From NCBI GenBank assembly GCA_919902995.1, contig CAKKSD010000016.1:1-33499 (forward strand): 33,499 nucleotides of DNA, read 5' to 3'. Position 1 is the stretch's first letter. Each line of letters starts with the position of its first letter. A program made the position numbers and the translations under genes. Origin of the DNA: Thermodesulfovibrionia bacterium (GTDB taxonomy: Bacteria > Nitrospirota > Thermodesulfovibrionia > JACRGW01). Below are positions 9,974 to 33,426 of the stretch, piece after piece. The notes beneath the pieces were generated by a model. The model worked only from the letters and a program-made list of their open reading frames with translations, made no database searches and was not told the origin of the DNA.

Positions 9974-10825
9974 TTGAAGATTTCAAAACCGCTAAGCTGG
10001 GTAATTATTCTCGGATCTTTTATCCTTTTGGCCTTATCTTCTTACAGTTATGCGGCGGGTAAAGGTCATACGCCCCGTTTTATGATAATGATAGATGAGA
10101 AAAACCTTGGGACTTATAGTATTGCCGAAGCAGAAAAGATGATTACAGAGTATCTGATGTCCAAGGGAGTGGAGGTAGTGGATTCCGAGTTAATAAAGAC
10201 GAATATAGACCGTGATAAGGCACTTCAAGCAATGGCCGGTGGCCCAAGGGCAGCCGCTGCACTGGGGCTTCAATTCGGTGCTGATGTGATCATTGTGGGA
10301 AAGGCTATTTCTAAAGGTTCTGCAGAGCAGATAAAGGATACCTCTTTCAGGTCTTATCAGGCGAGCGTAAGCCTTAAGGCTATACGAACGGACAATGCGG
10401 AGGTGCTGGCTATTGAGAGTAATGATACGGCAAGAATTCATGTAGATGACATGGCAGGAGGAACCCTTGCTATCCGTGAAGCCACCGCTCCCCTGATTAA
10501 TACCTTTATTCCCAAAGTGCTCTCCCGTTGGGGAAACCCTTCCCAGAGCGAAGCAAGGAAGATTCAACTTATTGTCGGGGATGTCCAGCATGTATGGCAG
10601 ATAGCGGCACTAAAAAAACTCTTGCAGGAGAAGGTCAAAGGGATAAAAGAATTGGTCCAGAGGAGCTTTGTATCAGGTGTGGCTATCTTTGAAGTCCTTT
10701 GTAATTGCGATTCTCAGGGACTTGCTGAGGATTTGACCATGTCTGATCCAGGTTACTTCAGATTGAAGATACTGGGAATCACTCCGAATAAGTTGGATAT
10801 AAAACTGGTAGAAACAGGATCGTGA
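9974..10825 (+). CDS. Secreted FlgT/CsgG-like protein with C-terminal ~85-aa domain (TTG start)
   Basis: Signal peptide; 'GLQFGADVIIVGKAISKGSAEQIKDTSFRSYQASVSLKAI' is FlgT/CsgG-like; aggaggt RBS; C-terminus shared with the 11498 gene. Confidence 0.7.
   Translation: MKISKPLSWVIILGSFILLALSSYSYAAGKGHTPRFMIMIDEKNLGTYSIAEAEKMITEYLMSKGVEVVDSELIKTNIDRDKALQAMAGGPRAAAALGLQFGADVIIVGKAISKGSAEQIKDTSFRSYQASVSLKAIRTDNAEVLAIESNDTARIHVDDMAGGTLAIREATAPLINTFIPKVLSRWGNPSQSEARKIQLIVGDVQHVWQIAALKKLLQEKVKGIKELVQRSFVSGVAIFEVLCNCDSQGLAEDLTMSDPGYFRLKILGITPNKLDIKLVETGS
10795..10821 (+). repeat. Direct repeat, left copy: 3' end of the 9974 gene
   Basis: ggatataaaactggtagaaac (21 nt identical) plus 'aggatc'; matches 11455-11481. 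Confidence 0.85.
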
Positions 10826-10883
10826 TGGTGGAATGTGATATTATTTAGAAAGTAACTTGATATAAAGGGAGGGTATATATACA

Positions 10884-11087
10884 ATGTCTTTACTCAAAAA
10901 GGAATATAAGAGAGTAACTTTTCCTATTAGCGTTTTTAAAACAGCTGATACAAAGGAAGATCTTGAAGACTGGCTTTTATCAAAAAATTCAAGCTTCCTA
11001 AAGAGGATGCGAAGGGCAAGAAAAGATGACATTCATGGCAAAGGGAAAGATTGGAAGACTCTTAAAAAAGAGTTATGTATAAAATAA
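10884..11087 (+). CDS. Probable antitoxin of a RelE/ParE-type module
   Basis: 67-aa ORF with RBS 'gggaggg', overlapping a RelE-like frame at its 3' end. Confidence 0.6.
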   Translation: MSLLKKEYKRVTFPISVFKTADTKEDLEDWLLSKNSSFLKRMRRARKDDIHGKGKDWKTLKKELCIK

Positions 11088-11351
11088 CATTCTTACCCGA
11101 TGCCGAAGAATCATTCAAGAAACTTGATAAATCTATGCAGAAAAGAATTGCTGAAAAGATTGATTGGCTGGGAGAGAATACAGATAAAATAATTCATCAC
11201 CCTCTTGCATCATTAACCAGATGATCTGCGAGGGTTATGTAGGATGAGAATTGGTAACTATCGTCTGTTTTATTGGGTTTATTTCGAAACAAAGCATATA
11301 AAAATATATGATATCGAACACAGGGGTAAAGATTATCGTTTTATAAAATAA
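11075..11351 (+). pseudogene. RelE/ParE-family toxin with a single +1 frameshift
   Basis: MYKITFLPDAEESFKKLDKSMQKRIAEKIDWLGENTDKIIHHPLASLT, then after removing one nt near 11218-11220: DDLRGLCRMRIGNYRLFYWVYFETKHIKIYDIEHRGKDYRFIK*. Continuous RelE-like sequence over both frames. Confidence 0.8.
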
Positions 11352-11366
11352 AAATGCTATAGCTAT

Positions 11367-11399
11367 CAAAAGATCTTAAAAGTTATTTGAGATCTTTTG
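11367..11399 (+). terminator. Hairpin downstream of the RelE-like module (caaaagatct/agatcttttg)
   Basis: Perfect 10-bp arms 11367-11376 and 11390-11399 followed by T-rich sequence. Confidence 0.6.
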
Positions 11400-11454
11400 G
11401 TTTACTGGATTCCCATTTTCATGTGAATGATACCATTTGGATGGAGTTCGCTAT

Positions 11455-11481
11455 GGATATAAAACTGGTAGAAACGGGGTC
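11455..11481 (+). repeat. Direct repeat, right copy: orphan 3' end of the 9974 gene (encodes MDIKLVETGS* with the preceding at)
   Basis: ggatataaaactggtagaaac-ggggtc matches 10795-10821 with two differences; frame ends in tag directly before the next gene's RBS. Confidence 0.85.
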
Positions 11482-11497
11482 ATAGGAGGAGCATATT

Positions 11498-12658
11498 ATG
11501 AAGAGCCGTTATCTCTGGCACTGTATTATATCAGTCCCTGCCCTGGTGCTGTTGATGGTTAAAATCGATTTTTCTCTGGCAGAAGAGAAGCCAAAGTTAG
11601 ATCAAACCCGTAGTAATATTGTGATTGATGGGTTTATGTCGAAACCGGCTCAGGATGATAAGGGAGAATCCGGTATCGGGCGACCAGGTTACCGGCTCAG
11701 TCTGATGTCAGTAGAAGCAAAAAGTTTTCATGATAGCATTCAGAGAAAGATAGCCAATGGCGAGCCATTAAGCTGGGCAGATAGACAGGTAATCAGAGAA
11801 TTACAGGTGCTCCGTCAGTGGCCTGTCCCACCACAACTTGCGGATGAGCAGAAGCGGTTTGTTGAATATATCAATGGGTTGGACCGTCCTCTTAATTTTA
11901 GCGAGAGAATATTAGTTAAGCATCTGGTGGGACAAGGGCTCTGGCCTGATGGAAAGGACCTCCTACCCTCCGGTACTGATAGGTCATTCATTGATTACTA
12001 CAACAGCCTTACCCCGGAGAGACTTGGTGGGATGGCAGAACTGATGAAGTCATGGCGTACAGCTAAAGGAGTTACGATGGATATCCAGCAGAATAAGAAC
12101 ATTGTAAAAGATGAATTGCCTCCTGACAAAATACCAGACAGAGGACTACCTCTATTAGATGTAAGAAAAACTGAGGAGGGACAGGGACCCAGAGAGGCAG
12201 ATAAAAAATGGGATAAAGAGACAGCGTCTACCCCAACCAATCAAGGGATGAAGCAAGGGATAGAGGAGGGCAGGTTGTTAAAACCTGTCATTGATGCGGG
12301 TGCGGGCATGTCTTCTGTCAAGAGTCGGGAGCAGGGTTCCCCTGAGGGAAGACAGGTCATCTCCGTGAAAAACAGATCTACTACTGAGTTAAAGGAGATA
12401 CAGCTTGTAACTGTGGATGTCCATCATGTCTGGCAGGTATCTGCCCTGAAGGAACTGTTGCGCCAGATCAAGGGTATTAAAGAGGTAATCCAGCGTAGCT
12501 TTGTATCTGGTGTGGCGATCTTTGATGTCCATTTCAGTGGCGATTCTCAGGCCTTGGCTGAGGAGTTGACCCTTGCAAATTCGGGGTACTTCAGATTGAA
12601 GGTCCTTGGAGTAATGCCAAATAAGCTGGATATGAAACTGGTGGAAAGCGGGTCTTAA
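11498..12658 (+). CDS. Secreted protein with C-terminal domain paralogous to that of the 9974 gene
   Basis: Signal peptide; C-terminal 'IQLVTVDVHHVWQVSALKELLRQIKGIKEVIQRSFVSGVAIFDV...NKLDMKLVESGS'; 'aggaggagc' RBS. Confidence 0.75.
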   Translation: MKSRYLWHCIISVPALVLLMVKIDFSLAEEKPKLDQTRSNIVIDGFMSKPAQDDKGESGIGRPGYRLSLMSVEAKSFHDSIQRKIANGEPLSWADRQVIRELQVLRQWPVPPQLADEQKRFVEYINGLDRPLNFSERILVKHLVGQGLWPDGKDLLPSGTDRSFIDYYNSLTPERLGGMAELMKSWRTAKGVTMDIQQNKNIVKDELPPDKIPDRGLPLLDVRKTEEGQGPREADKKWDKETASTPTNQGMKQGIEEGRLLKPVIDAGAGMSSVKSREQGSPEGRQVISVKNRSTTELKEIQLVTVDVHHVWQVSALKELLRQIKGIKEVIQRSFVSGVAIFDVHFSGDSQALAEELTLANSGYFRLKVLGVMPNKLDMKLVESGS

Positions 12659-12684
12659 AAATTTTTAGGGATTAGATATAAATC

Positions 12685-13788
12685 ATGAAATCGAATCGAA
12701 GATATCGTCATTCAGAAATAATCGCTTCAAATCGGTCATCTCGAAAAAAAATCATAACTATTTTGCTGACTCTTTTGTTATTACTGCTTCCTTTGTTCTC
12801 TTTTAAAGCAAGGGCTGAAACTAAAAACCTTGATAAGAATACACTTCTTTATTCCGCCAAGATTCTTAATGACGTTATGGAATTCCGTAGGATGGCACTG
12901 TCGGATTATAAAGAGGCATTAACTAAATTCGGTTCCCTTAAGGTCGTAGATAAATTTAAGGAATTTGATAAATACCTCTGGCCTGTTACTAATCCACGTC
13001 TTTCCTGGTCTTACTTCTTTAATGTTTCTGTTTATGCCTTTGGTGATGTATCTAAGAAAAATCAAGTGGTTGGCTTCTATCATCCCTGGAGCGATGTCTT
13101 CTTGGTTATGGATTGGAAATTAGAAAAAGGCGACAATGCTGTGATTCAGGATGCTGAAGTTGTTGTAGGCGACTGGATTCGGAATAATGGGAACTTGCCT
13201 TTTGATCCAATACCGGCATGGCTGAGAAAGAATCAATTTAAGGTAACATCATTAGGGATAGCAACAGCAGAAGCAGTAAGAGCCTTTGAAAAATTGTTTA
13301 ATTTAACTGAAGGCAACGTTTTCAGAAATACTATATCTAGCATTAAAGACAAGGAATTGCTTGAGGATCCTAACTACTATTATGCTGCCGCAGCTCTCTT
13401 GAATAATCTAATTAAGATTGAGAATTTCGGTTCTCCCGGGATTGAGGAGGATAAAAACCTTACTTCCCTCCGCAAAGAAACGAATAAGGTTAACGAGCTG
13501 GCAGCTCAGGGCAGATGGAATCAGATTTTTAGTTCAGCGAACTATACACTGCCGGAAACAAAGGAGATGCTAAAGAAAATGCCTTCAGAGATATTTAAGA
13601 GTCTTAAGGTTGTAGATTTTTATCTGGGAAATGAAGACGGACTGGTCTTTCTCGTGCCGGTTGTTGATTCAGGATATTGCCTCAGTTTTCTCTATAAGGG
13701 AAAGGGAGGAAAATATAATATCAAACGGATCGATATCGTTAACTTTTCTGAATTCTATAAAAAATATGTCCTGCTTATAGGTTATTGA
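12685..13788 (+). CDS. Secreted hypothetical protein
   Basis: Strong signal sequence 'KKIITILLTLLLLLLPLFSFKARAE'; no family recognised. Confidence 0.7.
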   Translation: MKSNRRYRHSEIIASNRSSRKKIITILLTLLLLLLPLFSFKARAETKNLDKNTLLYSAKILNDVMEFRRMALSDYKEALTKFGSLKVVDKFKEFDKYLWPVTNPRLSWSYFFNVSVYAFGDVSKKNQVVGFYHPWSDVFLVMDWKLEKGDNAVIQDAEVVVGDWIRNNGNLPFDPIPAWLRKNQFKVTSLGIATAEAVRAFEKLFNLTEGNVFRNTISSIKDKELLEDPNYYYAAAALLNNLIKIENFGSPGIEEDKNLTSLRKETNKVNELAAQGRWNQIFSSANYTLPETKEMLKKMPSEIFKSLKVVDFYLGNEDGLVFLVPVVDSGYCLSFLYKGKGGKYNIKRIDIVNFSEFYKKYVLLIGY

Positions 13789-13811
13789 TAATGAAGTGGA
13801 GGTGTTTTAGT

Positions 13812-16664
13812 ATGGCTAAATATTACAAAACCGGACATGTACGATCCATCATTTTGTTGCTCATTACAAACTTTGTGTTCCTGTTTATGACATCGCAGTG
13901 GAGTTTAGCAGTTGGTTCTTCTTGGTCGGATGGACTTTTTTCCAGAGAAAGCGGATTTAATTTCCAGTCTGGAGCAGAAGACTCTTTCAATACGTATCAT
14001 GAGGCAAAGATGGCGGTTTTCAAAGCAAACCGTTGTCTAAATCCTGATGGGTCCATTAATAAAAACGCCCCTAATTATGGTAAGGCAGTGGAGAGGCTAA
14101 AACCATTACATGAGTCGATGATGGATGTTGCTCGTGCACAGGGTAGAGTACGAGACGCTGCTGTAACATCCGTTTTTCAAGAGGCCGGCGTGAAACCTCC
14201 GGAACATTTTACTGGAACAAATCCGAGCAGTCCGGGAGGCCGCGGTATACACAGCGATTTTGAACTTACCGCAAGATCAGGTCCAGAATATGACAAATTG
14301 TCTAAGACGTTTGTTGAAAAGTTTGGCAATAAGAATGTAGAAATAGGTCCTGACTACATTAAACATAAAGGGTCGAATACAGTCATACATCGGCCGTCTG
14401 GTGTTCAAGACCCCGTAGGTAGCTCTGCATGGGAGGCAAGGAGCGTGGCTCAAAACGTTAAAGGTGAGACATTAGGCTCAGCAGCATCGCAGGAAAAATA
14501 CCAGAAAGTAGGTGGGGAATTCGCTGCCAAAGATGCCAAAGGAGCAGGACTTGATGGTGTCAAGAAGGCCCAGGAAGCCTGGAATTCTAATCCGAATACT
14601 CCTTATGAACAATACCAGCGGACGCAGGAACTGGCCAAGGCGACCAACGAAATAAATAAGGCAGCTGGAAAACCTGTAGATTCTACCCTTAAGAAGATTA
14701 AAGAAGGGATGGATCCAGATCTGTTGCCAGAAGTGAAGAAACCGGTTAAAGAAATGGCAAGGGAACAGATAAAAGATGCGTGGAAACAAATAGAGGCCAA
14801 GAATACAGAGAACCTAACCAAACTGGACAATGCGATAAAGAAAGCCCCTACAGAGGCCGAAAAGATGGCATTAAAGTCACAGAAAATAGATATTACCGGT
14901 CGTCAAAATGCACTAACAGAACAATTGGTAAAAAATGATAGTGGAAAGGCACTGACTGAATTAACCGGTCAGCAACCCCCAAAAATACCTGACTCAAAAA
15001 TAAAACCGGGTGCTGCTCCTGAGGTAAAAGCCGGTAGCGGGATTGGTAAGGGGGCAACAGCAGCCGAAGAAGGTGCCGGAGGTGTTGGAGGTAAGGGTAG
15101 CGGCGTTGTTGGAAAGACCATAGGAAAAATCTTGTTAATCTACGGCATTTCAAACACTGCAATCAATGTCTATAATTCCAACGATAAAATAGAAACAGTT
15201 AAAGAAGAGTCAGGGGGATGGCTGGGAGGATTCTTAGGAGGCATGCTTACTGGTGGGCCCGTAGGTGCTATTACCGGAGCTATAATCGGCAGTTTATCAA
15301 CAAATAAAGATTTTTCGAACTGGCTTGCAGGTAATAAGGATCAGGTTCTCAAAGATTTACAAACCCACCTTGAAAAGGCAGGGCCAGCAATGATCGCAGG
15401 GGAACAGAAAAAGCTTGAGAAAAACATTGAAGAACTTAGAAAAACTGGAGCGCTTGAGGGTATCTTAAACCCTCCATCGCCCGGAACTGCCGGAGGGCCT
15501 ATTTATATTGATAAGGAAAAAGAAAGTTATAAAGAAAGGATTGAGGCAGAAAAGGAAAAAGAAAGAGTTGAGAAGGAACAGATTAAAGGGGGTCTCGAGA
15601 ACCTTGAGAAAACAGGAGGACTAAAGGATATAAACCCTCCATCGACCGGAACTGCAGCAGGGACTCAGGATATTGGTTCTTCAAAAATCTCTGACCTCAG
15701 AGGTTCTGAAGCCAAGACCAGCAAAATAGATAAAGAAAAACTGGAAAAATCACCTGAAGATCAGAAGGCCGGAATGGAACTGGCTAAGAATACAAAGGTT
15801 ACTGATTCCTACGACAAGGATCGGTCTCGAAAATCGAAACGGAAGGCCAAGGAGGTGCAGGATACTGCAGGGTCCACACAGAAGGAGCGGGGAGATGTCT
15901 CACAAGCAGAAGACCAGAGGGAGAAGACTAAAATTAAAGGCCAGGGTGAAGAGACAGATAGGGCAATTTCTTCATCAAAGCAGGAGCATATCTCCGCTGA
16001 AAAAGCTGCCGAGCAAGCGAGGCAGACTGCAATAGGGACTGTTATTGCCGGCGGTCTTTTTGGCGGGCTGAGTTCAGGAGTGGCTATAGGTCTTGATAAT
16101 CTTTTCGGCACCATCGGAAAAGGTGCAGGCCAGCAGGTATCCAGTAATATGGGTATCCAGCCCAAACCTTCATCCACAGGGGCAGGCAATCAGGCAACCG
16201 GAGGGACAACATCTGCTGCAGGAGACCCTCTACCCTGGACCTACAGCGGCACATGTAACGGCACTGTCAAGGCTAAAGCGAATTTCGGTGCAGGGGGAAG
16301 CGTGGGTTGCTCCTTCAGCGGACCTTCTAAGACAACTCTTAATGCTGACGGGTCGGTAACAGGGGAATCAAGCGCAGGCTTCTGGGTTGAATTTTCCGAT
16401 AGCGGAAGCGGAACGGGTTGCGCTTCGAAATCGGGTAACTCGACTTTTAACGGTTCCCATTCAAATGGTTCGGTAAACATAACCGGCAGTTCAGGTAGCA
16501 AGTTCAGCGGAAGTTATAATGCAAACTCCCTTACCTATTCGGGTGGAAGATCAGGGTCTTCCATGTCCATTAGCGGAGGGAAATCTGCAACCGCTGATGT
16601 ATCAACTTCCTGCACATATTCTCGGCAAAGCAGCGGCAGTAACACGGGTAATCCTAATAAATGA
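13812..16664 (+). CDS. Large secreted protein with coiled-coil regions, two glycine-zipper segments and a Gly/Ser-rich beta C-terminal domain
   Basis: Start chosen at MAKYYKTGHV with ggagg RBS; 'GGWLGGFLGGMLTGGPVGAITGAIIGS' and 'AIGTVIAGGLFGGLSSGVAIGLDNLFGTIGKGAG'; C-terminal 'WTYSGTCNGTVKAKANFGAGGSVGC...CTYSRQSSG'. Confidence 0.75.
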   Translation: MAKYYKTGHVRSIILLLITNFVFLFMTSQWSLAVGSSWSDGLFSRESGFNFQSGAEDSFNTYHEAKMAVFKANRCLNPDGSINKNAPNYGKAVERLKPLHESMMDVARAQGRVRDAAVTSVFQEAGVKPPEHFTGTNPSSPGGRGIHSDFELTARSGPEYDKLSKTFVEKFGNKNVEIGPDYIKHKGSNTVIHRPSGVQDPVGSSAWEARSVAQNVKGETLGSAASQEKYQKVGGEFAAKDAKGAGLDGVKKAQEAWNSNPNTPYEQYQRTQELAKATNEINKAAGKPVDSTLKKIKEGMDPDLLPEVKKPVKEMAREQIKDAWKQIEAKNTENLTKLDNAIKKAPTEAEKMALKSQKIDITGRQNALTEQLVKNDSGKALTELTGQQPPKIPDSKIKPGAAPEVKAGSGIGKGATAAEEGAGGVGGKGSGVVGKTIGKILLIYGISNTAINVYNSNDKIETVKEESGGWLGGFLGGMLTGGPVGAITGAIIGSLSTNKDFSNWLAGNKDQVLKDLQTHLEKAGPAMIAGEQKKLEKNIEELRKTGALEGILNPPSPGTAGGPIYIDKEKESYKERIEAEKEKERVEKEQIKGGLENLEKTGGLKDINPPSTGTAAGTQDIGSSKISDLRGSEAKTSKIDKEKLEKSPEDQKAGMELAKNTKVTDSYDKDRSRKSKRKAKEVQDTAGSTQKERGDVSQAEDQREKTKIKGQGEETDRAISSSKQEHISAEKAAEQARQTAIGTVIAGGLFGGLSSGVAIGLDNLFGTIGKGAGQQVSSNMGIQPKPSSTGAGNQATGGTTSAAGDPLPWTYSGTCNGTVKAKANFGAGGSVGCSFSGPSKTTLNADGSVTGESSAGFWVEFSDSGSGTGCASKSGNSTFNGSHSNGSVNITGSSGSKFSGSYNANSLTYSGGRSGSSMSISGGKSATADVSTSCTYSRQSSGSNTGNPNK

Positions 16665-16696
16665 CTAACAGCACTTAAAAAAGGTAATTAGATACT

Positions 16697-20604: not shown

Positions 20605-20713
20605 TACACACCCCTTAATCCCCTCTTAATAGAGGGGAAAGAAAAATCTTAATCTCTTCTTAAAAGAGGGGAAATAAGAGACTCCCCTCTAAAAAGAGGG
20701 GTAGGGGTGTGTA
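20605..20713. repeat. 109-bp MITE-like element with 10-bp terminal inverted repeats and internal cccctct/agagggg palindromes
   Basis: tacacacccc (20605-20614) and ggggtgtgta (20704-20713); internal hairpins near 20619-20636 and 20684-20701. Confidence 0.65.
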
Positions 20714-20735
20714 TAAAGATTATAATACATCTTAC

Positions 20736-21848
20736 ATGATCACAGGCGTTCCGAAAGAAATAAAGAAAGAAGAATACAGGGTTGCGATTACACCTGCAGG
20801 TGTAGAAGAACTTAAAAGAGATGGTCATAAGACCCTTATAGAGAACGGGGCAGGTGAAGGGAGTGGCTTTTCAGATAATGAATATATTAAGGCAGGGGCA
20901 GATATTGTTCAAAGGGACATTTTGTTTAAAGAGTCAGATCTGATAGTGAAGGTAAAGGAGCCACTGCCATCAGAATATGATCTACTCAGGGTAGGGCAGG
21001 GAATCTTCACATTTCTCCACTTAGCACCAAATCTCGGGCTTACAGAATTGCTGATTAATAAAAAAATAACCGCCCTTGGATATGAAACCCTTGAGAAAGA
21101 TGGTAAGTTTCCCCTGCTTTCACCTATGAGTGAGATAGCAGGGAGAATGGCACCTATCATAGGGTCATACTACCTTCAAAAGATTAATGGAGGTGATGGA
21201 GTACTGCCTACAGGTGCAAGCGGGGTAAAGCCAGGGAAGGCATTAATATTAGGTGCAGGTGTTGTCGGTACAAATGCCGCCCATATCTGTGCAGGGATTG
21301 GAATTGATACTACTGTGATGAACAAAGGAATTGAGAGGTTACAGAAGATTGATGAAGTCTTTATGGGAAAGGTGAAGACCTTATCACTTACAGTATTAAA
21401 TATAAGGGAGGAGATAAAGGATGCAGATATCGTAATCGGGGCTATACTTGTCCCTGGTGGAAGGACTCCTATACTTATAACCAGGGATATGCTCAGGACA
21501 ATGAAAAGGGGAGCTGTAATAGTGGATGTATCTATTGATCAGGGTGGATGTGTAGAGACAGCGAGACCTACGACCCATGACAATCCTATCTATGAGGTTG
21601 AGGGCGTAATCCATTATACAGTTGCTAATATGCCGGGTGCATACCCCAGGACATCAACACTTGCTCTCACAAATGCGACACTCCCATATCTCAAGGCTAT
21701 AGCAAGTAAAGGGTTAGAAAAGGCGATCACAGAAGACCCAGCCATCAGGAGTGCCCTTAACACATATAAGGGTGAAGTCGTCCATAAGGCATTGGCGGAT
21801 TCTATGGGTATAGCGCATAAAAGTATTAACGAATTACTAAGACTGTGA
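20736..21848 (+). CDS. ald: Alanine dehydrogenase
   Basis: 'MITGVPKEIKKEEYRVAITPAGVEELKRDGHKTLIENGAGEGSGFSD', 'GRMAPIIGSYYLQK', 'ALILGAGVVGTNAAHIC'. Start at internal Met; the upstream extension overlaps the MITE. Confidence 0.96.
   Translation: MITGVPKEIKKEEYRVAITPAGVEELKRDGHKTLIENGAGEGSGFSDNEYIKAGADIVQRDILFKESDLIVKVKEPLPSEYDLLRVGQGIFTFLHLAPNLGLTELLINKKITALGYETLEKDGKFPLLSPMSEIAGRMAPIIGSYYLQKINGGDGVLPTGASGVKPGKALILGAGVVGTNAAHICAGIGIDTTVMNKGIERLQKIDEVFMGKVKTLSLTVLNIREEIKDADIVIGAILVPGGRTPILITRDMLRTMKRGAVIVDVSIDQGGCVETARPTTHDNPIYEVEGVIHYTVANMPGAYPRTSTLALTNATLPYLKAIASKGLEKAITEDPAIRSALNTYKGEVVHKALADSMGIAHKSINELLRL
21795..21827 (+). repeat. Direct repeat, left copy: within the ald 3' end
   Basis: gcggattctatgggtatagcgcataaaagtatt identical (33/33) to 22897-22929. 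Confidence 0.95.
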
Positions 21849-21941: not shown

Positions 21942-22508
21942 ATGCTTGTGGAGCATAGTAGAGAAAAATTAATCAATTCTATTATTTATTTCCTGAATAA
22001 CACAAAAAACTGTGGTAAGACAAAACTATTTAAGCTTTTGTATTACCTCGATTTCATGCATTTCCGAGAAACAGGAAGGCCTGTTACTGGTTTGGATTAT
22101 TATGCATGGGATTTCGGGCCTGTTCCTAAAAATCTATTCAATGAGATGGAAAATCCTGCTACTGATTTAAAAGAAAGCATATTCATACCCGTGAAGGCTG
22201 AAAAAGATTATAAGTCTTTTGTCGAGATAAAAGCTAAAAAGAAGTTTGATGATAAATATTTTACAAAGCGCGAACTTCGGATTCTGGAGAAGGTTGCTTT
22301 TATTTTCAAGGATGCCAATGCTGAAGATATTATAGAGACATCCCACCTGCCGAATCATCCATGGGATAAAACTATTCTGACAAAGGGTGAGAAGGCAAAA
22401 ATAGACTATACTCTTGCACTGGATAGTTCTGAAAGTTCTTTATCCCTTGAAGAGGTATTGGAGCGTATAAAGGACAAAGAGGAGATTAAAAAAGCCTTTA
22501 ATGCATAA
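21942..22508 (+). CDS. Panacea-domain (DUF4065/SocA-like) antitoxin
   Basis: 'LINSIIYFLNNTKNCGKTKLFKLLYYLDFMHFRETGRPVTGLDYYAWDFGPVPKNLFNEM' is the Panacea signature. Confidence 0.85.
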   Translation: MLVEHSREKLINSIIYFLNNTKNCGKTKLFKLLYYLDFMHFRETGRPVTGLDYYAWDFGPVPKNLFNEMENPATDLKESIFIPVKAEKDYKSFVEIKAKKKFDDKYFTKRELRILEKVAFIFKDANAEDIIETSHLPNHPWDKTILTKGEKAKIDYTLALDSSESSLSLEEVLERIKDKEEIKKAFNA

Positions 22509-22896
22509 AGGGACTATCCTTTATCATCAGGCTTTTCAATTCCAGAACGGTGAAATTGGCAAGAAACTTTTAATAATCCTTAACACACCACAAAAAGACG
22601 AGCCTTACCTTTGCTGTAAAACCACTTCAAAGCAAAAATACAACATAGACAAGGAAGGCTGCCATTATAATAAAAACATTTATGTTATCTATCCGAATAC
22701 CGATTGGTTTAAAGAAAAGACATGGGTACAGTTTCATGAACTATACGAGATCGAATCCGGCAAATTTCTGAAAGACCATTTTGATGGTAAGTTAGAAGTA
22801 AAGGGGACATTGAAAGTAAATACTATTTCTGCAATAATCAATTGTGTTAAACGCTCAGAGGATGTATCGAATTATCATCTGACATTGTTAAGGTAA
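22501..22896 (+). CDS. Putative toxin partner of the Panacea antitoxin, possible MazF/PemK-like N-terminus
   Basis: Overlaps the antitoxin by 8 nt; 'KGTILYHQAFQFQNGEIGKKLLIILNTPQKDEPYLCCKTTSKQ' resembles the PemK/MazF start by eye. Confidence 0.6.
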   Translation: MHKGTILYHQAFQFQNGEIGKKLLIILNTPQKDEPYLCCKTTSKQKYNIDKEGCHYNKNIYVIYPNTDWFKEKTWVQFHELYEIESGKFLKDHFDGKLEVKGTLKVNTISAIINCVKRSEDVSNYHLTLLR

Positions 22897-22929
22897 GCGG
22901 ATTCTATGGGTATAGCGCATAAAAGTATT
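22897..22929 (+). repeat. Direct repeat, right copy: orphan ald 3' end, starting directly after the toxin stop codon
   Basis: 33/33 identity to 21795-21827, then diverged continuation encoding ...HKSIDKLLSID*. Confidence 0.95.
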
Positions 22930-22985
22930 GATAAATTATTGAGTATAGATTGATGCTTTTCGATGAATCAGGTAGGAGATAATTA

Positions 22986-25034: not shown

Positions 25035-25192
25035 TTCACACCTCCCCCACTTTAATTATTTTTAATTGTTAGTGAATAGTGAACAGTGAATAGTTCTTAA
25101 ATCTCATTAAATACTATTTACTTGAATCTTAGCCCAATCCTGAAGAGTTGTCAACTAAAGCTTAAGATTTTCAATTTTTTATTGATAAAGAT

Positions 25193-25855: not shown

Positions 25856-25876
25856 AATCAGTCCTCCAAAAAATCT

Positions 25877-27859
25877 TTAAAACTGTATTTCAAGCGCCCT
25901 TAATGCAAAATTAAGAACACCGCCAACTAAAAAGGCAAAGGGGAATATTATCCCTGCCATTAAAAGTGCAACCCTCATCCCCCGTTCCTTTATTATCATA
26001 AAGAAATTGGCAAGACATGGGACAAAGAGTGTTATCGTAACAAGACTCACTACTACCTGAAGGGGGGTAAGCATTCCCCCTTCTGAGAGTGCAAGAAGTC
26101 CAGCTGCGCCGTAATCTCTCCTCAGGAATCCAAGGATAAATGACTCTGTAGCCTTTGCGGGAAGTCCAAGGAATTCAACAACAATAGGCGAAGCAAACCT
26201 TTCTATATATATAAGGATATTCAGTTTGTTCAAGAAAAAGAGAAAAAGAGTGCCGAGGATGAAGAGGGGAACGGCCTCTTTTAGGTACCACTCAACCCTT
26301 CCGATTGTCTTTACTATCACATTCATGGTTTGTGGTAATCTTATAGGAGGGATCTCAAGAAAGAATTCTGCTTTATCACCAGGGATAACTTTGGATGCCA
26401 GAAACCCTGCAAGAAGTACTGTAGCAAACACACTTCCTGCCCATATTAATGTTGCCTTGCCAGAGATAGGGGCGAGCATACCGAGGATAACTCCCAGCTG
26501 TGCAGAGCAGGGGACGGCAAGGGCGAGGAGAAAGGTGGTAATTATCCTTTCTCTCTTAGTCTCAAGAATCCTTGTGGTCATTGTTGCCATTGTATCACAT
26601 CCAAGGCCGAGCACCATAGGTAAAACTGCTTTACCATTCAGACCCATTACCTTAAATATTCTATTAGCCATGATTGCAAGCCTTGGTAAATATCCTGAGT
26701 CCTCGAGTATCGCAAAGGCTATAAAGAATGTTGTTGTTATTGGGAGTATTATTCCTATTGCATAGGTTATAGCCATAGAAATAATACCATATTCACCGGT
26801 GAGTAATTCCTGTAAAAAGGTAACAGGCAGCAACGCATTCACAATCTTCACGGCCCAGGGATTTAAGTATTTTCCAAAAACTGCCTTCTCCATGAGATTT
26901 ACAAGTGTTCCTGCACCAAAAATACCGACAAACTGGTATATCCCATAAAGCACTAATATTAATATCGGTATTCCCCATAAAGGGTGCATACTCATCCGCC
27001 CTATAAAGGGTGCAAGATTACTGCCTTTCGGATGTGACCTTTTCAGTACCCTCTTTCCAATCCCCTCTGCTGCTTTTATCCTCGCCTCATTTATTAAATA
27101 ACTGACCGGAGTAGAAAACCTCGCCTGGGTGCTGTCCTTTATTTCTTCAAGATTCTTGATCTCCTCTGCAGACATATTGGTATTCAGCCAATCCTTCAGG
27201 CTTTCATCACCGCTCAAGATCATAAGGGCTATAGAACGTCTGGATATGTTTGCCTCAGGAAGTAGGGCTGTTATCACCTCTATCTGTGACTCGATAAGAG
27301 GATCATACCCAATCTTTGTTATCGGTATTCTTGGCCCATGGATTGCTTCTTTTAGATTATTTATACCTTTTCTCTGAGTTGCTATGGTTGTGATTGTCCT
27401 TATGCCGAGAATCTCCTCAAGTTTTTTTGTATCTATTGTGAGTCCCCTATCCCTTGCCTCATCTTTCATATTGAGATTAAGAATAAGGGGTACGCCCATT
27501 TCTCCTAACTGCAGTGTAAGCATCAGGGTCCTTTTCAGATTTTTTGCATCAGAAACCTGAACAATAGCCACAGGTTTTTCTGTCAGAAGTATATCCCTTG
27601 TAACCCTTTCGTCCTCACTCATCGGTATAAGGTTATTCACCCCAGGGGTATCAACAATAAGAAACCTCTTTCCATCGAGTGACATATTACCGTAAGATAC
27701 CTCTACAGTTGTACCTGGATAGTTGGAGACGGTTGCGTATTTACCGGTAAGGAGACCAAAGATGGCACTTTTCCCTACATTTGGGTTTCCGATAAGGATA
27801 ACCCTTTCATATTGTCCCTTTATCTTTTTAGTTCTATGTTCGTGCATCATTCTCTCCAA
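25877..27859 (-). CDS. feoB: Ferrous iron transport protein B
   Basis: 'VILIGNPNVGKSAIFGLLTGKYATVSNYPGTTVEVSYG' G-domain and multi-TM FeoB core. Confidence 0.96.
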   Translation of the reverse strand: MERMMHEHRTKKIKGQYERVILIGNPNVGKSAIFGLLTGKYATVSNYPGTTVEVSYGNMSLDGKRFLIVDTPGVNNLIPMSEDERVTRDILLTEKPVAIVQVSDAKNLKRTLMLTLQLGEMGVPLILNLNMKDEARDRGLTIDTKKLEEILGIRTITTIATQRKGINNLKEAIHGPRIPITKIGYDPLIESQIEVITALLPEANISRRSIALMILSGDESLKDWLNTNMSAEEIKNLEEIKDSTQARFSTPVSYLINEARIKAAEGIGKRVLKRSHPKGSNLAPFIGRMSMHPLWGIPILILVLYGIYQFVGIFGAGTLVNLMEKAVFGKYLNPWAVKIVNALLPVTFLQELLTGEYGIISMAITYAIGIILPITTTFFIAFAILEDSGYLPRLAIMANRIFKVMGLNGKAVLPMVLGLGCDTMATMTTRILETKRERIITTFLLALAVPCSAQLGVILGMLAPISGKATLIWAGSVFATVLLAGFLASKVIPGDKAEFFLEIPPIRLPQTMNVIVKTIGRVEWYLKEAVPLFILGTLFLFFLNKLNILIYIERFASPIVVEFLGLPAKATESFILGFLRRDYGAAGLLALSEGGMLTPLQVVVSLVTITLFVPCLANFFMIIKERGMRVALLMAGIIFPFAFLVGGVLNFALRALEIQF

Positions 27860-27885
27860 ATAATTTGTATTTAAGTATCTAAATA

Positions 27886-27980
27886 TAGAGATTGCTTCGC
27901 TTCGCTCGCAATGACAAATAATGATAAATTAAGTAAAGACAGCGCCGTCATTGCGAGGAGCGGAGCGACGAAGCGATCTC
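27886..27980. repeat. MITE-like dispersed repeat with gagattgcttcg...cgaagcgatctc arms
   Basis: 'gagattgcttcgcttcgctcgcaatgac' and 'gtcattgcgaggagcggagcgacgaagcgatctc' are imperfect inverted repeats. A related sequence occurs near 768-812. Confidence 0.55.
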
Positions 27981-28006
27981 GTTATATGGTTTATCGCACA
28001 TATAAT

Positions 28007-28426
28007 TCACCTGCATTTCCTGCAGTACCCCCGTATTTCAAGAGTGTGACTTATACCTCTAAAACCATAATCCTTGCATAACCTTTTCTGGAGTTCTTCC
28101 AATTCCTGAGAATGAAACTCAACAACTCTGCCGCAGGTAATACATATCATATGGTCATGGTGGTTATGGCCATAGGTATGTTCGTAGTGTGCGTGTTTGT
28201 CAACCTTAATAACCTCCTCCAGAAGGCCACTTTCGATAAGTAGGGGGACAGTCCTGTAAATTGATGCCTTGGATATACTACTGCCCTTCTTCCTCAATCT
28301 GATATGCAGTTCCTCCGGGTCGAAATGGCCATGAAAGGAGAATATCTCCTTAAGGATTGCCTCTCGCTCCCTTGTGAGTTTCAATCCCTTCTTCTGAAGA
28401 AATTCCTTAAAGATTGTATTATACAT
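28007..28426 (-). CDS. fur: Fur-family transcriptional regulator
   Basis: 'GLKLTREREAILKEIFSFHGHFDPEELHIRLRKKGSSISKASIYRTVPLL', 'HHDHMICITCGRVVEF', terminal CRKC. Confidence 0.9.
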   Translation of the reverse strand: MYNTIFKEFLQKKGLKLTREREAILKEIFSFHGHFDPEELHIRLRKKGSSISKASIYRTVPLLIESGLLEEVIKVDKHAHYEHTYGHNHHDHMICITCGRVVEFHSQELEELQKRLCKDYGFRGISHTLEIRGYCRKCR

Positions 28427-28537
28427 TGTAATTGATTCTCAGTCGCAATTGTAACTTATCTCAGGTATCCTGTCAATGGGAATTTTTAGGTTATCATTTT
28501 AGAGTCCAGGTTGACTATAAGGTTAGGGGGAAGTATA

Positions 28538-29050
28538 ATGCATATCCAAAATTTGAAAATGAACCCCTATCATAAAGGAGGAAGTGTGGAAAAAGAGATA
28601 GAGACTTTAGATCTTAAAGGATATAAGGAGACGATACCCCCTGTGAATAAGGGTACACTTACACTCGACAGAGATCTGATATTCGTGGCAAGAACCCAGA
28701 GGGGTTATGAATTCGAGTATGACCCTAATTTTGAATGGGGATGCTCGCCAACAGAGACACTTCTCATGAGCTTAGCAGGCTGCCTTGCGATTGATGTGGT
28801 TTCCTTCTTAAGAAAGATGAGAGCTGAAATCACGAATTTCAAAATAAATGCCTCGGGGGAAAGGAATCCGATACCGCCCCAGTATTATAAATCGATTGAA
28901 ATGGTTATAGATATCTCAGGAAAAGGGATTACTCCAAAAAAGATGGATAAGGCGATAGCTTTGTCCCAGGAGAAATATTGTTCTGTTTATCATTCCCTTA
29001 GGAAGGATATAAAGGTAGATGTGAAATATAATATAACCAATGAAGATTGA
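28538..29050 (+). CDS. OsmC family protein
   Basis: 'CSPTETLLMSLAGCLAIDVVSFLRKMR...QKYCSVYHSL'-type OsmC pattern; start at MHIQNLKM with RBS taggggg. Confidence 0.88.
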   Translation: MHIQNLKMNPYHKGGSVEKEIETLDLKGYKETIPPVNKGTLTLDRDLIFVARTQRGYEFEYDPNFEWGCSPTETLLMSLAGCLAIDVVSFLRKMRAEITNFKINASGERNPIPPQYYKSIEMVIDISGKGITPKKMDKAIALSQEKYCSVYHSLRKDIKVDVKYNITNED

Positions 29051-29062
29051 TTTTTAAGAGAT

Positions 29063-30424
29063 TCATTGACACGATTTATTCCTTATCTCCCTTAGAATCT
29101 CATAGGTGAGCCTCTTCCCTTCCTCTACCCCTGGCTGGTCAAAGGGGTTAACATTGTAAAGTGCTCCAGCAATCGCTGTTTGTACCTGAAAGAGGTACAG
29201 GAGCTGGCCTACTGTATGGGGGGTAATCTCCGGAAGGGTTATCCTCATATTCGGCCTCTTTGCCTTTGTGAGGGATATTTCTGTTGCAGTCTGTTCAGTA
29301 TTTATTAACTCTGATAGACTATGGTCTCTGAGATAGGATACCTTTTCCAAATCTTCAAAGGCCCCCGGTATCTCGATTTCCTCAGTGAACCTTTCTACCC
29401 TCAGGAATGTTATTATCTTGTCATTTGGCCCTTCGATATAAAGCTGTAGCTGTGAGTGCTGGTCTGTTGCACCGAGGGCTTTCACTGGTGTCTGTCCTGT
29501 ATTTACCACCTTTCCATTCAGATCCAGTTTTTTACCAAGACTCTCTGCCCAGAGCTGGCAGAACCAGTCTGCTACCTTCTCAAGGGCATGGCTGTATGGC
29601 ATAATTACTGAGACTTTTTTCCCCTTCTTTGTATTCGCTATATAATGTAGTATAGCCCCCATTGATGCAGGATTCTCCTCTATTTCTTTAAGGAGACATC
29701 TTTTATCCATAGACTGAGCCCCTGATAGAATTGCCTCGATATCGATCCCTGCAACAGAGGCAGGGAAAAGACCGACTGATGTGAATACAGAGAACCTCCC
29801 TCCAACACCTTGAGGAATTTCAAGTGTCCTGTATCCTTCATCTGACGCGATCTTTCTGAGTACTCCTTTCTGAGGGTCTGTCGTAGCGATAATATGATTC
29901 TGCCATCCAGAACCTATCGCCTTCTTAAGCCTTTCTCTTATGACAAGGAATGAGGCAATGGTTTCGACTGTCTCCCCTGACTTCGTGACAACATTGAAAA
30001 CAGACCTTGTAATATCTATGAGATCGAGAAGTCCTTTTAACTGGTCAGGGTCAACATTATCATAAACAAAGACTCTCGGTCTTCTCCTCATCCCTTTCGG
30101 GAGGATATTCCTGTATGGATGTGTTAGGGCATTAAGCAGTGCTGTAGCCCCTAAGGCAGAGCCACCGATTCCGAGTATAACCAGGTCATCAAAGGAGTGG
30201 CTTATCTCTTCAGAAAGACCGATGATCTTTTTTATATCCTGATATGGGAGATCTAAAAATGGAAGTTTCCCCCTTGTTCTCTCTGAACTGATTTTTCTGA
30301 GGATGTTGGATGTCTTCTTCTTTAAAGAACCTATCTCTTTAGGGAGAACACCGTGTTTCTGGTTGACAGAGCCAGCCAGCATATTTTTATAGTCAATGAT
30401 TAGAGGGCCATTTCTATGAGTCAT
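29063..30424 (-). CDS. pgi: Glucose-6-phosphate isomerase
   Basis: 'LVILGIGGSALGATALLNAL', 'VVTKSGETVETIASFLVI', 'GVGGRFSVFTSVGLFPA', 'DQPGVEEGKRL'. Confidence 0.95.
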   Translation of the reverse strand: MTHRNGPLIIDYKNMLAGSVNQKHGVLPKEIGSLKKKTSNILRKISSERTRGKLPFLDLPYQDIKKIIGLSEEISHSFDDLVILGIGGSALGATALLNALTHPYRNILPKGMRRRPRVFVYDNVDPDQLKGLLDLIDITRSVFNVVTKSGETVETIASFLVIRERLKKAIGSGWQNHIIATTDPQKGVLRKIASDEGYRTLEIPQGVGGRFSVFTSVGLFPASVAGIDIEAILSGAQSMDKRCLLKEIEENPASMGAILHYIANTKKGKKVSVIMPYSHALEKVADWFCQLWAESLGKKLDLNGKVVNTGQTPVKALGATDQHSQLQLYIEGPNDKIITFLRVERFTEEIEIPGAFEDLEKVSYLRDHSLSELINTEQTATEISLTKAKRPNMRITLPEITPHTVGQLLYLFQVQTAIAGALYNVNPFDQPGVEEGKRLTYEILREIRNKSCQ

Positions 30425-30449
30425 AGACTTTAATACCAGGAATTTTCTT

Positions 30450-31064
30450 TTATCTGTCCCTGCTACGGGGTGCTGGTGTTGTGCCCTCTCCCATGCCGGG
30501 GAATGACGGCATCGTAACCTTCTGATATCCTGCAGGGGGTTCGAAAAGACTATCAGGCTGAGGTCCTGTTTTTATTTCTTTGAATTCTGTGCTCCAGCTT
30601 CCATCAATGGCAGACGTTTTAATAGGGAAGTTTAGATCGGTTGCCAGCCACTGAAACATCTTATCTGCTCTATCACCTGATTTATAGGTTACCTCATATT
30701 TTTTTGTCGGATGGCCATTAATTACTTCTGAGCCTACCTCCACCCTGCTAACCTCCCCCATAATTTTCTTTTCGACCTGTGGTTTTTCATGGGGTTTAAA
30801 GGGCTTTAAGGGCATCTCCATATATTTCTTTTCATCAGTCATAACCATCCACATAACCTGTTTATCCTCCCTTAGGATGTTATATCTCGGTTGACCCTGA
30901 GGCTCCATCCGAACCTTTTTCTCTTTAACATACATCTTCATGCTTTGTGTCATCCTTGCCGATGTAGTGACAATTAATGCTGAAAATTCTCGAGGTTGAG
31001 CGATAGACAGAGTTACACTAAAAAGAACTGTGGCAATTAATACTATTAAAATATTTTTTTTCAT
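30450..31064 (-). CDS. Secreted DUF4412-like protein
   Basis: Signal peptide MKKNILIVLIATVLFSVTLSIAQ; 'MTDEKKYMEMPL' / 'VINGHPTKKYEVTYK' pattern. N-terminal ORF extension rejected because it overlaps the tRNA. Confidence 0.75.
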   Translation of the reverse strand: MKKNILIVLIATVLFSVTLSIAQPREFSALIVTTSARMTQSMKMYVKEKKVRMEPQGQPRYNILREDKQVMWMVMTDEKKYMEMPLKPFKPHEKPQVEKKIMGEVSRVEVGSEVINGHPTKKYEVTYKSGDRADKMFQWLATDLNFPIKTSAIDGSWSTEFKEIKTGPQPDSLFEPPAGYQKVTMPSFPGMGEGTTPAPRSRDR

Positions 31065-31103
31065 TAACAGGCCTCCTTTCTGAGGTTGTTTCTTAATTAA
31101 AAT

Positions 31104-31180
31104 TGGTGGCGGTGCAGGGATTTGAACCCCGGACTCTGCGGATATGAGCCGCATGCTCTAACCAACTGAGCTACACCGCC
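31104..31180 (-). tRNA. tRNA-Met (CAT anticodon), CCA encoded
   Basis: Reverse complement GGCGGTGTAGCTCAGTTGGTTAGAGCATGCGGCTCATATCCGCAGAGTCCGGGGTTCAAATCCCTGCACCGCCACCA folds as a full cloverleaf. CAT could alternatively be Ile2. Confidence 0.93.
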
Positions 31181-31236
31181 TATATATAAAAAAGGATTAC
31201 GGATAATCTGTAACCCATTTTGGCATTTATATTTTT

Positions 31237-31281
31237 TGGTAGCGGGGGGAGGATTTGAACCTCCGACCTTCGGGTTATGAG
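31237..31281 (-). pseudogene. 3' half of initiator tRNA-fMet (anticodon loop to CCA)
   Basis: Reverse complement CTCATAACCCGAAGGTCGGAGGTTCAAATCCTCCCCCCGCTACCA equals the 3' half of a bacterial tRNA-fMet. The 5' half is absent. Confidence 0.9.
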
Positions 31282-31569
31282 ACGAATACAGTCCATAATT
31301 ATTAATAAGCTATCACGGGTAAGGCTTTATTGTCAAAGGATTTTTAAGCTATCAGGCAGTAAAGCCTTATCCCTTATTTAGGGGTGTTTTGAAAATCTTG
31401 TTAGAAGATTGTTAGAAGGTGATACTAAAAAGGTATTAAAGAAAGAAAGCACAATGCCCTGGGGAAACCTGGGGCCTTTTTTATTTTTACTGTTGACTTT
31501 CTTAGTGATTGTGATTGGTTTTTAACCAATGAGTTTGTTCTTCTTTTAACTTTCAGAAAGGAGACGGGA

Positions 31570-31923
31570 ATGAAAATATTGGTTTTAGTTGTGATGATTT
31601 TAGGGTTAGGTATTAACTCTGTTCTTGCAGGGGGAGATTGTGAGGTTGTAGATTATTCAACTTACCAAGAAGTGCGGGGGTCAGGAGGGTATGATTCATC
31701 AGTAGATATATATACTGTATGGTGTGCATCTTTTACGATTAAGAACACTTCTGGCGAAGGAAGGTTCGATCCAATAATAAAGGCAACGCTTGTTGATGGC
31801 AAAACCAAAGAAAAAAAGATTAAAACGTCAGAATTGATGGAGGCGGATTGTATTCTGATGCTATTTCTCTTGGGGACACATCCTTCTCTTGGGGACACAT
31901 CCCGTATTCCCAGCAGTTTTTAA
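31570..31923 (+). pseudogene. Secreted protein, apparently truncated by the 79-bp repeat
   Basis: Signal peptide MKILVLVVMILGLGINSVLAGG; the last ~20 residues (LLGTHPSLGDTSRIPSSF) are translated from the repeat. Confidence 0.6.
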
Positions 31924-31962
31924 CGTCTTTAAGAAATATGGGATGTGTCCCCCATTTAAGTA
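31884..31962. repeat. Repeat A copy 1 (79 bp) with long imperfect terminal inverted repeats ggggacacatccc...gggatgtgtcccc
   Basis: 79/79 identical by eye to 33194-33272. Confidence 0.95.
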
Positions 31963-32241
31963 ATGTCTCCAATCAAACAAACAAGGATAATGGTCAGGGT
32001 AACGACTACAGAGAATATAATAGAAGGCTATATAACCAAAATAGTGGAATCAAGGACCCTTGACATCCTGAAAAGCAAGGAAAAGTTTCTTGCCGTAACT
32101 GACGCTAAGGTTTATAAAGACGGTCGAAGACCCGACCTCTATGAGCCGTGGCTCACGAGCCATAGGCCAGAGGGCGGTTACGAGGAACGAAGGTTTGTAG
32201 CGGTTAATGTCACCAATATAGTTTCTGTGGAGGAAATATAG
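31963..32241 (+). CDS. Small hypothetical protein, DUF6812-like
   Basis: 'RVTTTENIIEGYITKIVESRTLDILKSKEKFLAVTDAKVYK...FVAVNVTNIVSVEEI' appears as an intact domain; start uncertain. Confidence 0.5.
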   Translation: MSPIKQTRIMVRVTTTENIIEGYITKIVESRTLDILKSKEKFLAVTDAKVYKDGRRPDLYEPWLTSHRPEGGYEERRFVAVNVTNIVSVEEI

Positions 32242-32348
32242 CGAGCAAAATGAGTTATGGCATCCCTCTATACTCATAAGAAACACGGCTGGCAGAACGA
32301 GGACAAGTACCTGCTCGATCCCCTCTTGGATACAGTACCGAGCAGCTG

Positions 32349-32469
32349 GGATTAAATAAAAGCACCCTGTCAATCTGCCTGCGGTTAAATCAGAGACCAT
32401 AACAGGCAAATAGGTATAAGACTTCAAACCTAATCCATGACCATTTTAAAGCCTGCACATTTTTAAACT
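32349..32469. repeat. Repeat B copy 1 (121 bp)
   Basis: First 79 nt identical to 33306-33384, then diverged, then 'aaagcctgcacatttttaaact' identical. Confidence 0.93.
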
Positions 32470-32489
32470 TCTTCTCTTTTTTATTTTAT

Positions 32490-32518
32490 TTGACAATACA
32501 TCAAATTGGTTGTATATT
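32490..32518 (+). promoter_or_regulatory. Sigma70-type promoter of the HigBA module
   Basis: TTGACA (32490-32495), 17-nt spacer, TATATT (32513-32518), ATG at 32526. Confidence 0.8.
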
Positions 32519-32525
32519 ATAGCTA

Positions 32526-32888
32526 ATGCTCTTTCACTTAAATTACTGGCGTAATCCATCTGGAAGAGCACCGGTTGAGCAATATATTGATGGGATAGAC
32601 AATAAAGAAGAAAAGGCTGAGCTACTCTCTACCTTAAAAGGTATACAAGAATATGGTACGGATGCAGTAGGGGTTGAATTCAGACAGATAGAAGGTAAGC
32701 TATGGGAACTCAAAATAAGGACACATGGCAGTCAGCATAGAATATTTTATGTTGTCCTTAAAGGGAATGAAATGATTCTTCTTCATGCCTATTTGAAAAA
32801 GACACCTAAAGCACCTTTAAAAGAGATACAAACAGCCAAACAGAGGCTTAAACAATTAATGGAGGTAAACAATGAAAACCGACCTTGA
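32526..32888 (+). CDS. higB: HigB/RelE-like (phage Gp49-like) toxin
   Basis: 'VEFRQIEGKLWELKIRTHGSQHRIFYVVLKGNEMILLHAYLKKTPKAPLKEIQTAKQRL'. Confidence 0.88.
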   Translation: MLFHLNYWRNPSGRAPVEQYIDGIDNKEEKAELLSTLKGIQEYGTDAVGVEFRQIEGKLWELKIRTHGSQHRIFYVVLKGNEMILLHAYLKKTPKAPLKEIQTAKQRLKQLMEVNNENRP

Positions 32889-33156
32889 TAAACATATAGA
32901 AAGACACTTAAAGGATAAGGAATTCAGGATTTATTTTGACAGGGCAGAGGCCAAAAGGAAAATAGCCCAGGAGATAGCAGATCTAAGGAAGACACATCAC
33001 ATCACACAGGCACAGTTGGCTAAAGAGATCAAGACAAGCCAGCAGGCTATCTCAAGGCTCGAAAGCCCACATGATAAACGCATGCCTTCCCTTGAATTCC
33101 TTGACAGGATAGCAAGAGTTTTTAACAGAAGGCTTGTAATATCCTTACAGAGATAA
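32872..33156 (+). CDS. higA: HigA-like XRE-family antitoxin
   Basis: HTH 'LRKTHHITQAQLAKEIKTSQQAISRLES'; overlaps the toxin 3' end. Confidence 0.9.
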   Translation: MKTDLDKHIERHLKDKEFRIYFDRAEAKRKIAQEIADLRKTHHITQAQLAKEIKTSQQAISRLESPHDKRMPSLEFLDRIARVFNRRLVISLQR

Positions 33157-33193
33157 GTTTTAAGTAAGAAGTAAATTAAAGCAAGGGCTATTG

Positions 33194-33272
33194 TTCTCTT
33201 GGGGACACATCCCGTATTCCCAGCAGTTTTTAACGTCTTTAAGAAATATGGGATGTGTCCCCCATTTAAGTA
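33194..33272. repeat. Repeat A copy 2 (79 bp)
   Basis: Identical to 31884-31962. Confidence 0.95.
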
Positions 33273-33305
33273 GGGCGTGGTGGATCTGAGCGTAAACAGC
33301 AGTCT

Positions 33306-33426
33306 GGATTAAATAAAAGCACCCTGTCAATCTGCCTGCGGTTAAATCAGAGACCATAACAGGCAAATAGGTATAAGACTTCAACCCTACCCTATAATTA
33401 CCTAAAAGCCTGCACATTTTTAAACT
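33306..33426. repeat. Repeat B copy 2 (121 bp)
   Basis: See copy 1 at 32349-32469. Confidence 0.93.

Follow-up and report, generated by a model that had tools for sequence, protein, structure and literature searches.

Small toxin-antitoxin (TA) modules in the genome of a Thermodesulfovibrionia bacterium (Nitrospirota) lie between direct repeats, and at several sites the repeat is a second copy of the end of the neighboring gene. The window analyzed here is the whole contig CAKKSD010000016.1 (G000:C16), 33,499 nucleotides (nt) of a 2.01-Mb draft genome (G000), and its three bracketed TA modules span ~0.6-1.1 kb each. The bracketing of TA modules is real, recurs across this genome and is present in other phyla. 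We propose that small TA modules are integrative cassettes that lack a recombinase and bring along their own version of the target gene end, a reading in which we have slightly better than even confidence. Our comparison set consisted of a congener from the same genus (G001), a member of the same family (G002) and one relative from the same order, all of them draft assemblies.

How widespread are such brackets? We scanned ~1.12 Mb of G000, in stretches, by locating repeats first (exact 18-mers spaced 250-4000 nt apart), blind to gene content. Non-TA repeat pairs that represented protein-internal repeats, paralogues, tRNA genes or a few dispersed repeats were excluded, and the pairs that remained bracketed TA modules. 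The notable exceptions without a TA module were a 220-nt pair 3 kb apart (L137) and dispersed repeats of 22-24 nt (L166). Beyond the window, the scan uncovered at least six more bracketed TA loci, from the PIN, ParE/RelE, BrnT, HicAB and DUF5615/DUF433 families. The flanking repeats vary in length and measure 22, 25, 33, 61, 77, 84 and 98 nt at several loci. The additional loci in G000 are:

PIN TA module at the yajQ 3' end, 77-nt repeat
ParE/RelE TA module at the tRNA-Leu(gag) 3' end, 25-nt repeat
BrnT TA module, 61-nt repeat
HicAB module, 98-nt repeat
DUF5615/DUF433 TA module, 83-nt repeat
HicA gene between copies of a macro-domain gene

Other sites in the genome and its class share this geometry. 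At L240 (72-2170), two successive modules, a DUF4258-like gene with a YgiT-type zinc-finger protein and then BrnT with an antitoxin, lie between nadC on one side and, on the other, an orphan copy of its end that carries synonymous differences; a tRNA-Val end (L245) forms a bracket of the same geometry. At L232 (G000:C43, 81-2267), a RelE TA module is flanked by a complete TolC-like gene and by a paralogous N-terminal fragment of 65 aa, so that the same logic applies to a 5' end.

The initial annotation of the window had called for a comparison with control regions, and brackets proved much more frequent at TA loci than at random intervals, offset intervals or ribosomal L27 loci. Among random 250-nt intervals of the same genome, 55/2222 (2.5%) were bracketed by a repeat of ≥16 nt, compared with 5/14 ParE-family loci of G000 (p=2e-5); this test is conservative because the random set itself contains TA loci. 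Within the class, 5 of the 30 BrnT loci were bracketed vs 0/30 ribosomal L27 loci. Across the whole bacterial collection, which covers many phyla, the figure for BrnT loci was 13/66 vs 7/122 for offset intervals at the same loci (p=0.004). Brackets were present at 24 of 119 TA loci and 7 of 152 controls (p=6e-5). The brackets counted in these comparisons include terminators and dispersed repeats as well as gene ends. Two loci illustrate the reach of the pattern: a BrnT module in a Lachnospiraceae genome (L337) is followed by a second copy of the final 29 nt of gdhA, and at a BrnT locus of Sulfuriferula (L361) the end of apaH is duplicated in the same geometry. Chance or an assembly artefact might be invoked, given that G000 and the same-genus, same-family and same-order genomes are drafts and that short repeats can mislead assemblers. 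We attach almost no credence to either, as random intervals are so rarely bracketed and the same geometry appears in independent genomes of other phyla.

The initial annotation placed all three TA modules of the window between direct repeats, and each pair of repeats is indeed there. It also identified the repeat of two modules as the 3' end of the neighboring gene; both host genes, ald and a gene that we call gene A, are intact, and an orphan copy of each end lies downstream. The features of the ald locus (module 2) are:

20709-21848, + strand: alanine dehydrogenase gene (ald), the host gene (TIGR00518, E=5e-136), intact, ending in the repeat and conserved in relatives
21795-21827, + strand: left repeat, the ald 3' end, with a 33-nt exact core and similarity that runs on to 21841
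21942-22508, + strand: Panacea/SocA-like antitoxin gene (PF13274, E=9e-22, 78.5 bits, cut-off 25.7; NF047745 below its cut-off)
22501-22896, + strand: gene for a putative partner toxin of 131 aa, overlapping the antitoxin gene by 8 nt
22897-22943, + strand: orphan ald 3' end, beginning directly after the toxin stop codon

The module 2 repeat is exact over 33 nt (21795-21827 and 22897-22929) and 89% identical over 47 nt. Both the bracketing and the Panacea assignment of the initial annotation were borne out; the partner toxin matched no Pfam or NCBIfam family. Ten other genomes of the class carry homologues of this partner, which may represent an undescribed toxin family. None of these homologues is bracketed by unique gene ends, and the one at L042 sits in a repeat-rich region. 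A trkH-like gene directly follows ald in G002 and other relatives have a single ald end, with synteny too loose to define exact empty sites. The same-genus ald locus was unusable for comparison, since contig G001:C57 ends at residue 316. The junction between ald and UbiB is rearranged in G001, because the UbiB-side contig (G001:C21) carries other DNA upstream.

Module 1 lies at the end of gene A:

9974-10825, + strand: host gene A, an intact open reading frame (ORF) whose last codons form the left repeat; no Pfam match
10794-10821, + strand: left repeat, the gene A 3' end, with a 22-nt exact core
10884-11087, + strand: gene for a putative antitoxin of 67 aa, an ORF upstream of the toxin gene; no family match
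11077-11350, + strand: RelE/ParE-like toxin gene, its reading frame broken by a frameshift
11454-11485, + strand: orphan gene A 3' end including the stop codon, encoding the same ETGS-stop protein end in other codons

Here the repeat, TGGATATAAAACTGGTAGAAAC, is exact over 22 nt (10794-10815 and 11454-11475) and 93% identical over 28 nt. A third copy, at 82%, forms the end of the downstream paralogous gene (12627-12654 within 11498-12658), which is 76% identical to gene A over the C-terminal 190 nt. The RelE-like module described in the initial annotation is bracketed as claimed; its toxin assignment fared less well, for the gene is frameshifted and a weak ParE_toxin match (E=0.003) covers only positions 53-89, in the C-terminal part. 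Gene A and its paralogue encode tandem secreted proteins with a common 63-aa C-terminal region of unassigned family, and a CsgG/fn3 protein gene (7883-9964) adjoins them.

The third module is a HigBA pair, as the initial annotation had it, with both families above cut-off. Its brackets are non-coding repeats, unlike the gene ends that bracket modules 1 and 2:

31884-31962, no strand assigned: left outer repeat of 79 nt, palindromic and REP-like with an 18-bp stem (hairpin -31.6 kcal/mol, z=-6.3)
32341-32474, no strand assigned: left inner repeat, non-coding, 90% identical to the right copy, with an 84-nt core
32526-32888, + strand: HigB-like toxin gene of the Gp49 family (PF05973, E=1e-18)
32872-33156, + strand: HigA-like antitoxin gene (HTH_3; PF01381, E=4e-12), downstream of the toxin gene with a 17-nt overlap
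33194-33272, no strand assigned: right outer repeat, 100% identical to 31884-31962
33298-33431, no strand assigned: right inner repeat, which pairs with 32341-32474

The inner core spans 84 nt with one mismatch (32349-32432 and 33306-33389) within the 134-nt repeat, which is 90% identical overall and showed no unusual fold. The outer pair, 79 nt with 100% identity, had escaped the initial annotation. The module 3 repeats correspond to no known RNA, because a search of the window for RNA families matched only a tRNA at 31107-31180. The left copy of the outer repeat also provides the last codons of an ORF at 31570-31923.

Where do the two gene ends at a bracketed locus come from? Aligned in gene orientation, the repeats have a sharp boundary toward the gene interior. 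The opposite boundary is gradual at gene A, ald, nadC and the 84-nt repeat of the window, where similarity fades through a stretch that is still homologous. At the three gene ends, the divergence in this stretch resembles that between coding sequences: the two ends of gene A both read ETGS-stop with different codons, six of the eight changed codons in the nadC tail, the stop included, keep their meaning, and both ald tails are open and similar. Two alleles of the gene end have probably met at these sites, because a fresh duplicate would be identical and a functionless, decaying orphan would not accumulate coding-like changes. The insert therefore probably came with a gene end of its own at several sites. 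At gene A, the comparison even suggests which end is which. The gene A homologue in G001 terminates in GGGTCATAG, as the orphan does, and the end of the downstream paralogue likewise matches the orphan; for this one gene, the orphan thus appears to be native and the current end imported. Downstream of the G001 homologue lies another gene and no TA module, in synteny too loose to give an exact empty site. The nadC ends of relatives did not distinguish the native tail at that locus.

These observations bear on an alternative in which the module inserts with a long target duplication, by break-repair or a staggered cut, as proposed for restriction-modification (RM) systems; the target would be copied on both sides and no gene end imported. 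This explanation accommodates the variable length of the duplication (22-98 nt), the addiction-type cargo and the lack of a recombinase, as well as the tRNA-Leu, yajQ and gdhA loci, where both copies are identical and both boundaries sharp. It does not account for gene A, ald, nadC and the 84-nt repeat of the window, which diverge only past a long exact core, nor for the coding-like character of the gene-end divergence, which is unexpected of a fresh target copy. Moreover, the gene A homologue in G001 has its final GGGTCATAG in common with the orphan and not with the current end. We consider long target duplication unlikely, though the likeliest of the alternatives.

One check put forward in the initial annotation was to look in close relatives for alleles that lack the module and have a single copy of the repeat. 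We found such alleles at the tRNA-Leu(gag) cassette of the same genome: both the congener (G001:C84) and the family-level relative (G002:C122) lack the TA module and have exactly one 25-nt copy. The flanks of this locus are ~95% identical between G000 and G001, and the flank beyond the orphan in G000 matches the flank of the empty site in G001. No relative was seen that keeps both copies without the module. A search with concatenated flanks gave no usable empty site at the other G000 loci. For the loci of the window, the same-genus contigs are broken or rearranged, and the module-free alleles seen came only from more distant genomes.

The yajQ locus indicates that one gene end can be used repeatedly. 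In G001, a nucleotidyltransferase/HEPN-like TA module, its HEPN gene truncated, separates yajQ from a further copy of the gene's end. Beyond that copy come the same PIN TA module as in G000 (97% identical) and then nadB; contigs C153 and C55 overlap there (L179, L182). The yajQ end has received TA modules at least twice, because the second module at this gene end in G001 is unrelated to the first. In G000, a co-oriented array of TA genes lies just 3' of rnj (L149, G000:C8:60001-80000, 600-4850) and has at least five copies of one ~50-nt repeat between its genes. The array includes PIN with an antitoxin, DUF5615/DUF433, a second antitoxin copy with an identical 81-aa sequence, another PIN and more small ORFs. 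Its repeat forms no strong hairpin and has a fold unlike that of an attC site.

Tandem duplication of a resident gene-TA pair, or decay of a paralogue, would mean that the orphan is left over from a duplicate gene and that the TA module was already resident. Gene A does have a real tandem paralogue (11498-12658), and L134 and L232 carry longer gene fragments beyond the TA module. The empty tRNA-Leu sites show instead that the TA module and the second copy arrive together; a different TA module occupies the same gene end in G001, and duplication leaves the enrichment around unrelated TA families unexplained. We regard this explanation as very improbable. The initial annotation had offered two readings, a cassette entering a gene's 3' end while carrying the terminal segment or an addiction module stabilizing a tandem duplication. 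The first fits better, because several sites show coding-like divergence between the two ends, and the second fits less. Overall, the interpretation given there is supported, and as far as the data reach, the refuting tests it named did not overturn it.

Could an integrase be responsible? The 3' ends of tRNA genes and other genes are typical integrase targets, at which the inserted element rebuilds the end of the gene. Accordingly, the modules might be remnants or satellites of integrative elements whose tyrosine integrase was lost or acts in trans and of which only the TA module is left. The geometry is that of attL and attR, and the target 3' end is restored at gene A, ald, yajQ, tRNA-Leu, nadC and gdhA. 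Yet the interior of these inserts is the TA module alone, and in module 2 the toxin stop codon abuts the core. The window's inserts encode the TA pair, and we found neither a recombinase gene nor an integrase remnant among their ORFs. G000 has a handful of integrase genes, with matches away from the window modules, to set against many different sites, and terminators and 5' gene parts are used as well. A dedicated recombinase is unlikely because integrases are absent from the window modules and few in the genome and the sites have no common sequence; integrase remnants as a whole strike us as quite improbable.

We return to the cassette that carries its own copy of the gene end, a mechanism that is moderately supported. 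Its substrate would be a circle with the core, the imported tail and the TA module, crossing over with the chromosomal gene end. A single crossover within the common gene-end core (about 20-95 nt) would insert the cassette. The gene would retain its upstream part and gain the cassette's end, remaining intact; the TA module would come next, and the original gene end would become the orphan beside the original downstream DNA. Linear DNA with one-sided homology and end-joining on the other side could give the same product. If the two cores recombined, the site would be empty again and a circle of core and TA module would be set free, whereas the addictive action of the module would favor retention of the insert. 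Cores of 22-98 nt are long enough for general homologous recombination. Selection would explain why gene ends are preferred, since insertion through an internal fragment would break the gene. We infer the circular intermediate, the transfer route, the use of general homologous recombination, the single-crossover step and the part played by addiction from the arrangement of the loci.

Several observations weigh against this mechanism. About 80% of the TA loci tested are unbracketed. Nor is a gene 3' end required: 5' gene parts (L164, L134, L232), terminators (L342, L330) and dispersed repeats (L140, window module 3) form the brackets at some loci. The argument for an imported end cannot be made at yajQ, gdhA and tRNA-Leu, because their copies are identical. 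No donor genome with the imported gene end and the same TA module was found; the best relatives of the Panacea partner are 63% identical and unbracketed. Finally, neither a free circle nor an excised form was observed, and these could not be sought in the present data.

How do these cassettes compare with known systems? The primary reports of long, variable target duplication by RM systems are those of Nobusato et al. (2000) and Furuta et al. (2010), as cited in PMC3874152 and PMC3031569. As in those systems, the cargo consists of addiction-type gene pairs, no recombinase is present, the direct repeats vary in length and the pattern emerges from comparing related genomes; the single-copy empty site at tRNA-Leu in G001 and G002 is a further match. 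A 2013 review from the Kobayashi group, in the passages available, states insertion with long, variable target duplication for RM and not for TA systems, with repeats of ~100 bp (PMC3874152), and passages of a second article also cover it for RM (PMC3031569). Unlike RM systems, the cargo here is TA modules of several families. The same RM passages do not mention gene-end replacement with synonymous divergence, unlike what we see at the sites described here. We found no report of long-duplication insertion for TA modules in the open-access literature. What appears new relative to the RM precedent is the TA cargo together with sequence evidence for gene-end exchange at several sites.

Other mobile systems are partial parallels. 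Phages, integrative and conjugative elements and integrative and mobilizable elements that use the 3' ends of tRNA or protein genes likewise have a core common to the gene end and the insert, a restored gene and an orphan on the far side; unlike them, the inserts here have no integrase, hold a single TA module (~0.6-1.1 kb in the window) and use a different core at each locus. The dif modules of Acinetobacter, which use XerC/XerD sites (e.g., PMC6449649), are also small accessory modules, some TA-bearing, with recombination sites on both sides and no recombinase of their own, but they rely on one conserved XerCD site type, whereas the repeats here have no common sequence. Integron cassettes are similarly compact and often TA-bearing, and the rnj array resembles them. 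Unlike in integrons, the repeats here are locus-specific, with no attI insertion, and the loci share no attC-like site, judging from repeat sequence and the fold of the rnj-array repeat rather than from attC models. As in Panacea (SocA-like) TA systems, the Panacea-domain antitoxin gene of module 2 overlaps a small partner gene; unlike in the named systems, the partner has no named family and its ten class homologues are mostly unbracketed.

This work bears on how solitary chromosomal TA modules pass between bacteria in the absence of plasmids, phages or transposases. As a tentative extension, in which our confidence falls short of even, TA pairs across bacteria may be minimal mobile units: a gene end would serve as the address tag, general recombination would replace a mobility enzyme, the last codons of the target would be exchanged and addiction would retain the insert. 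If true, this would explain the spread of solitary chromosomal modules of unrelated families. TA modules would then join RM systems as self-moving addiction genes, and the pile-up of TA modules at certain gene ends would be explained. The signature recurs and comes with clean empty sites, and is therefore directly testable by genome comparison.

One further repeat lies at the very end of the contig, where a 24-nt unit, CCAAAATGATAATGTCCTAATT, occurs twice (33453-33498); it is probably a repeat at which the assembly stopped.

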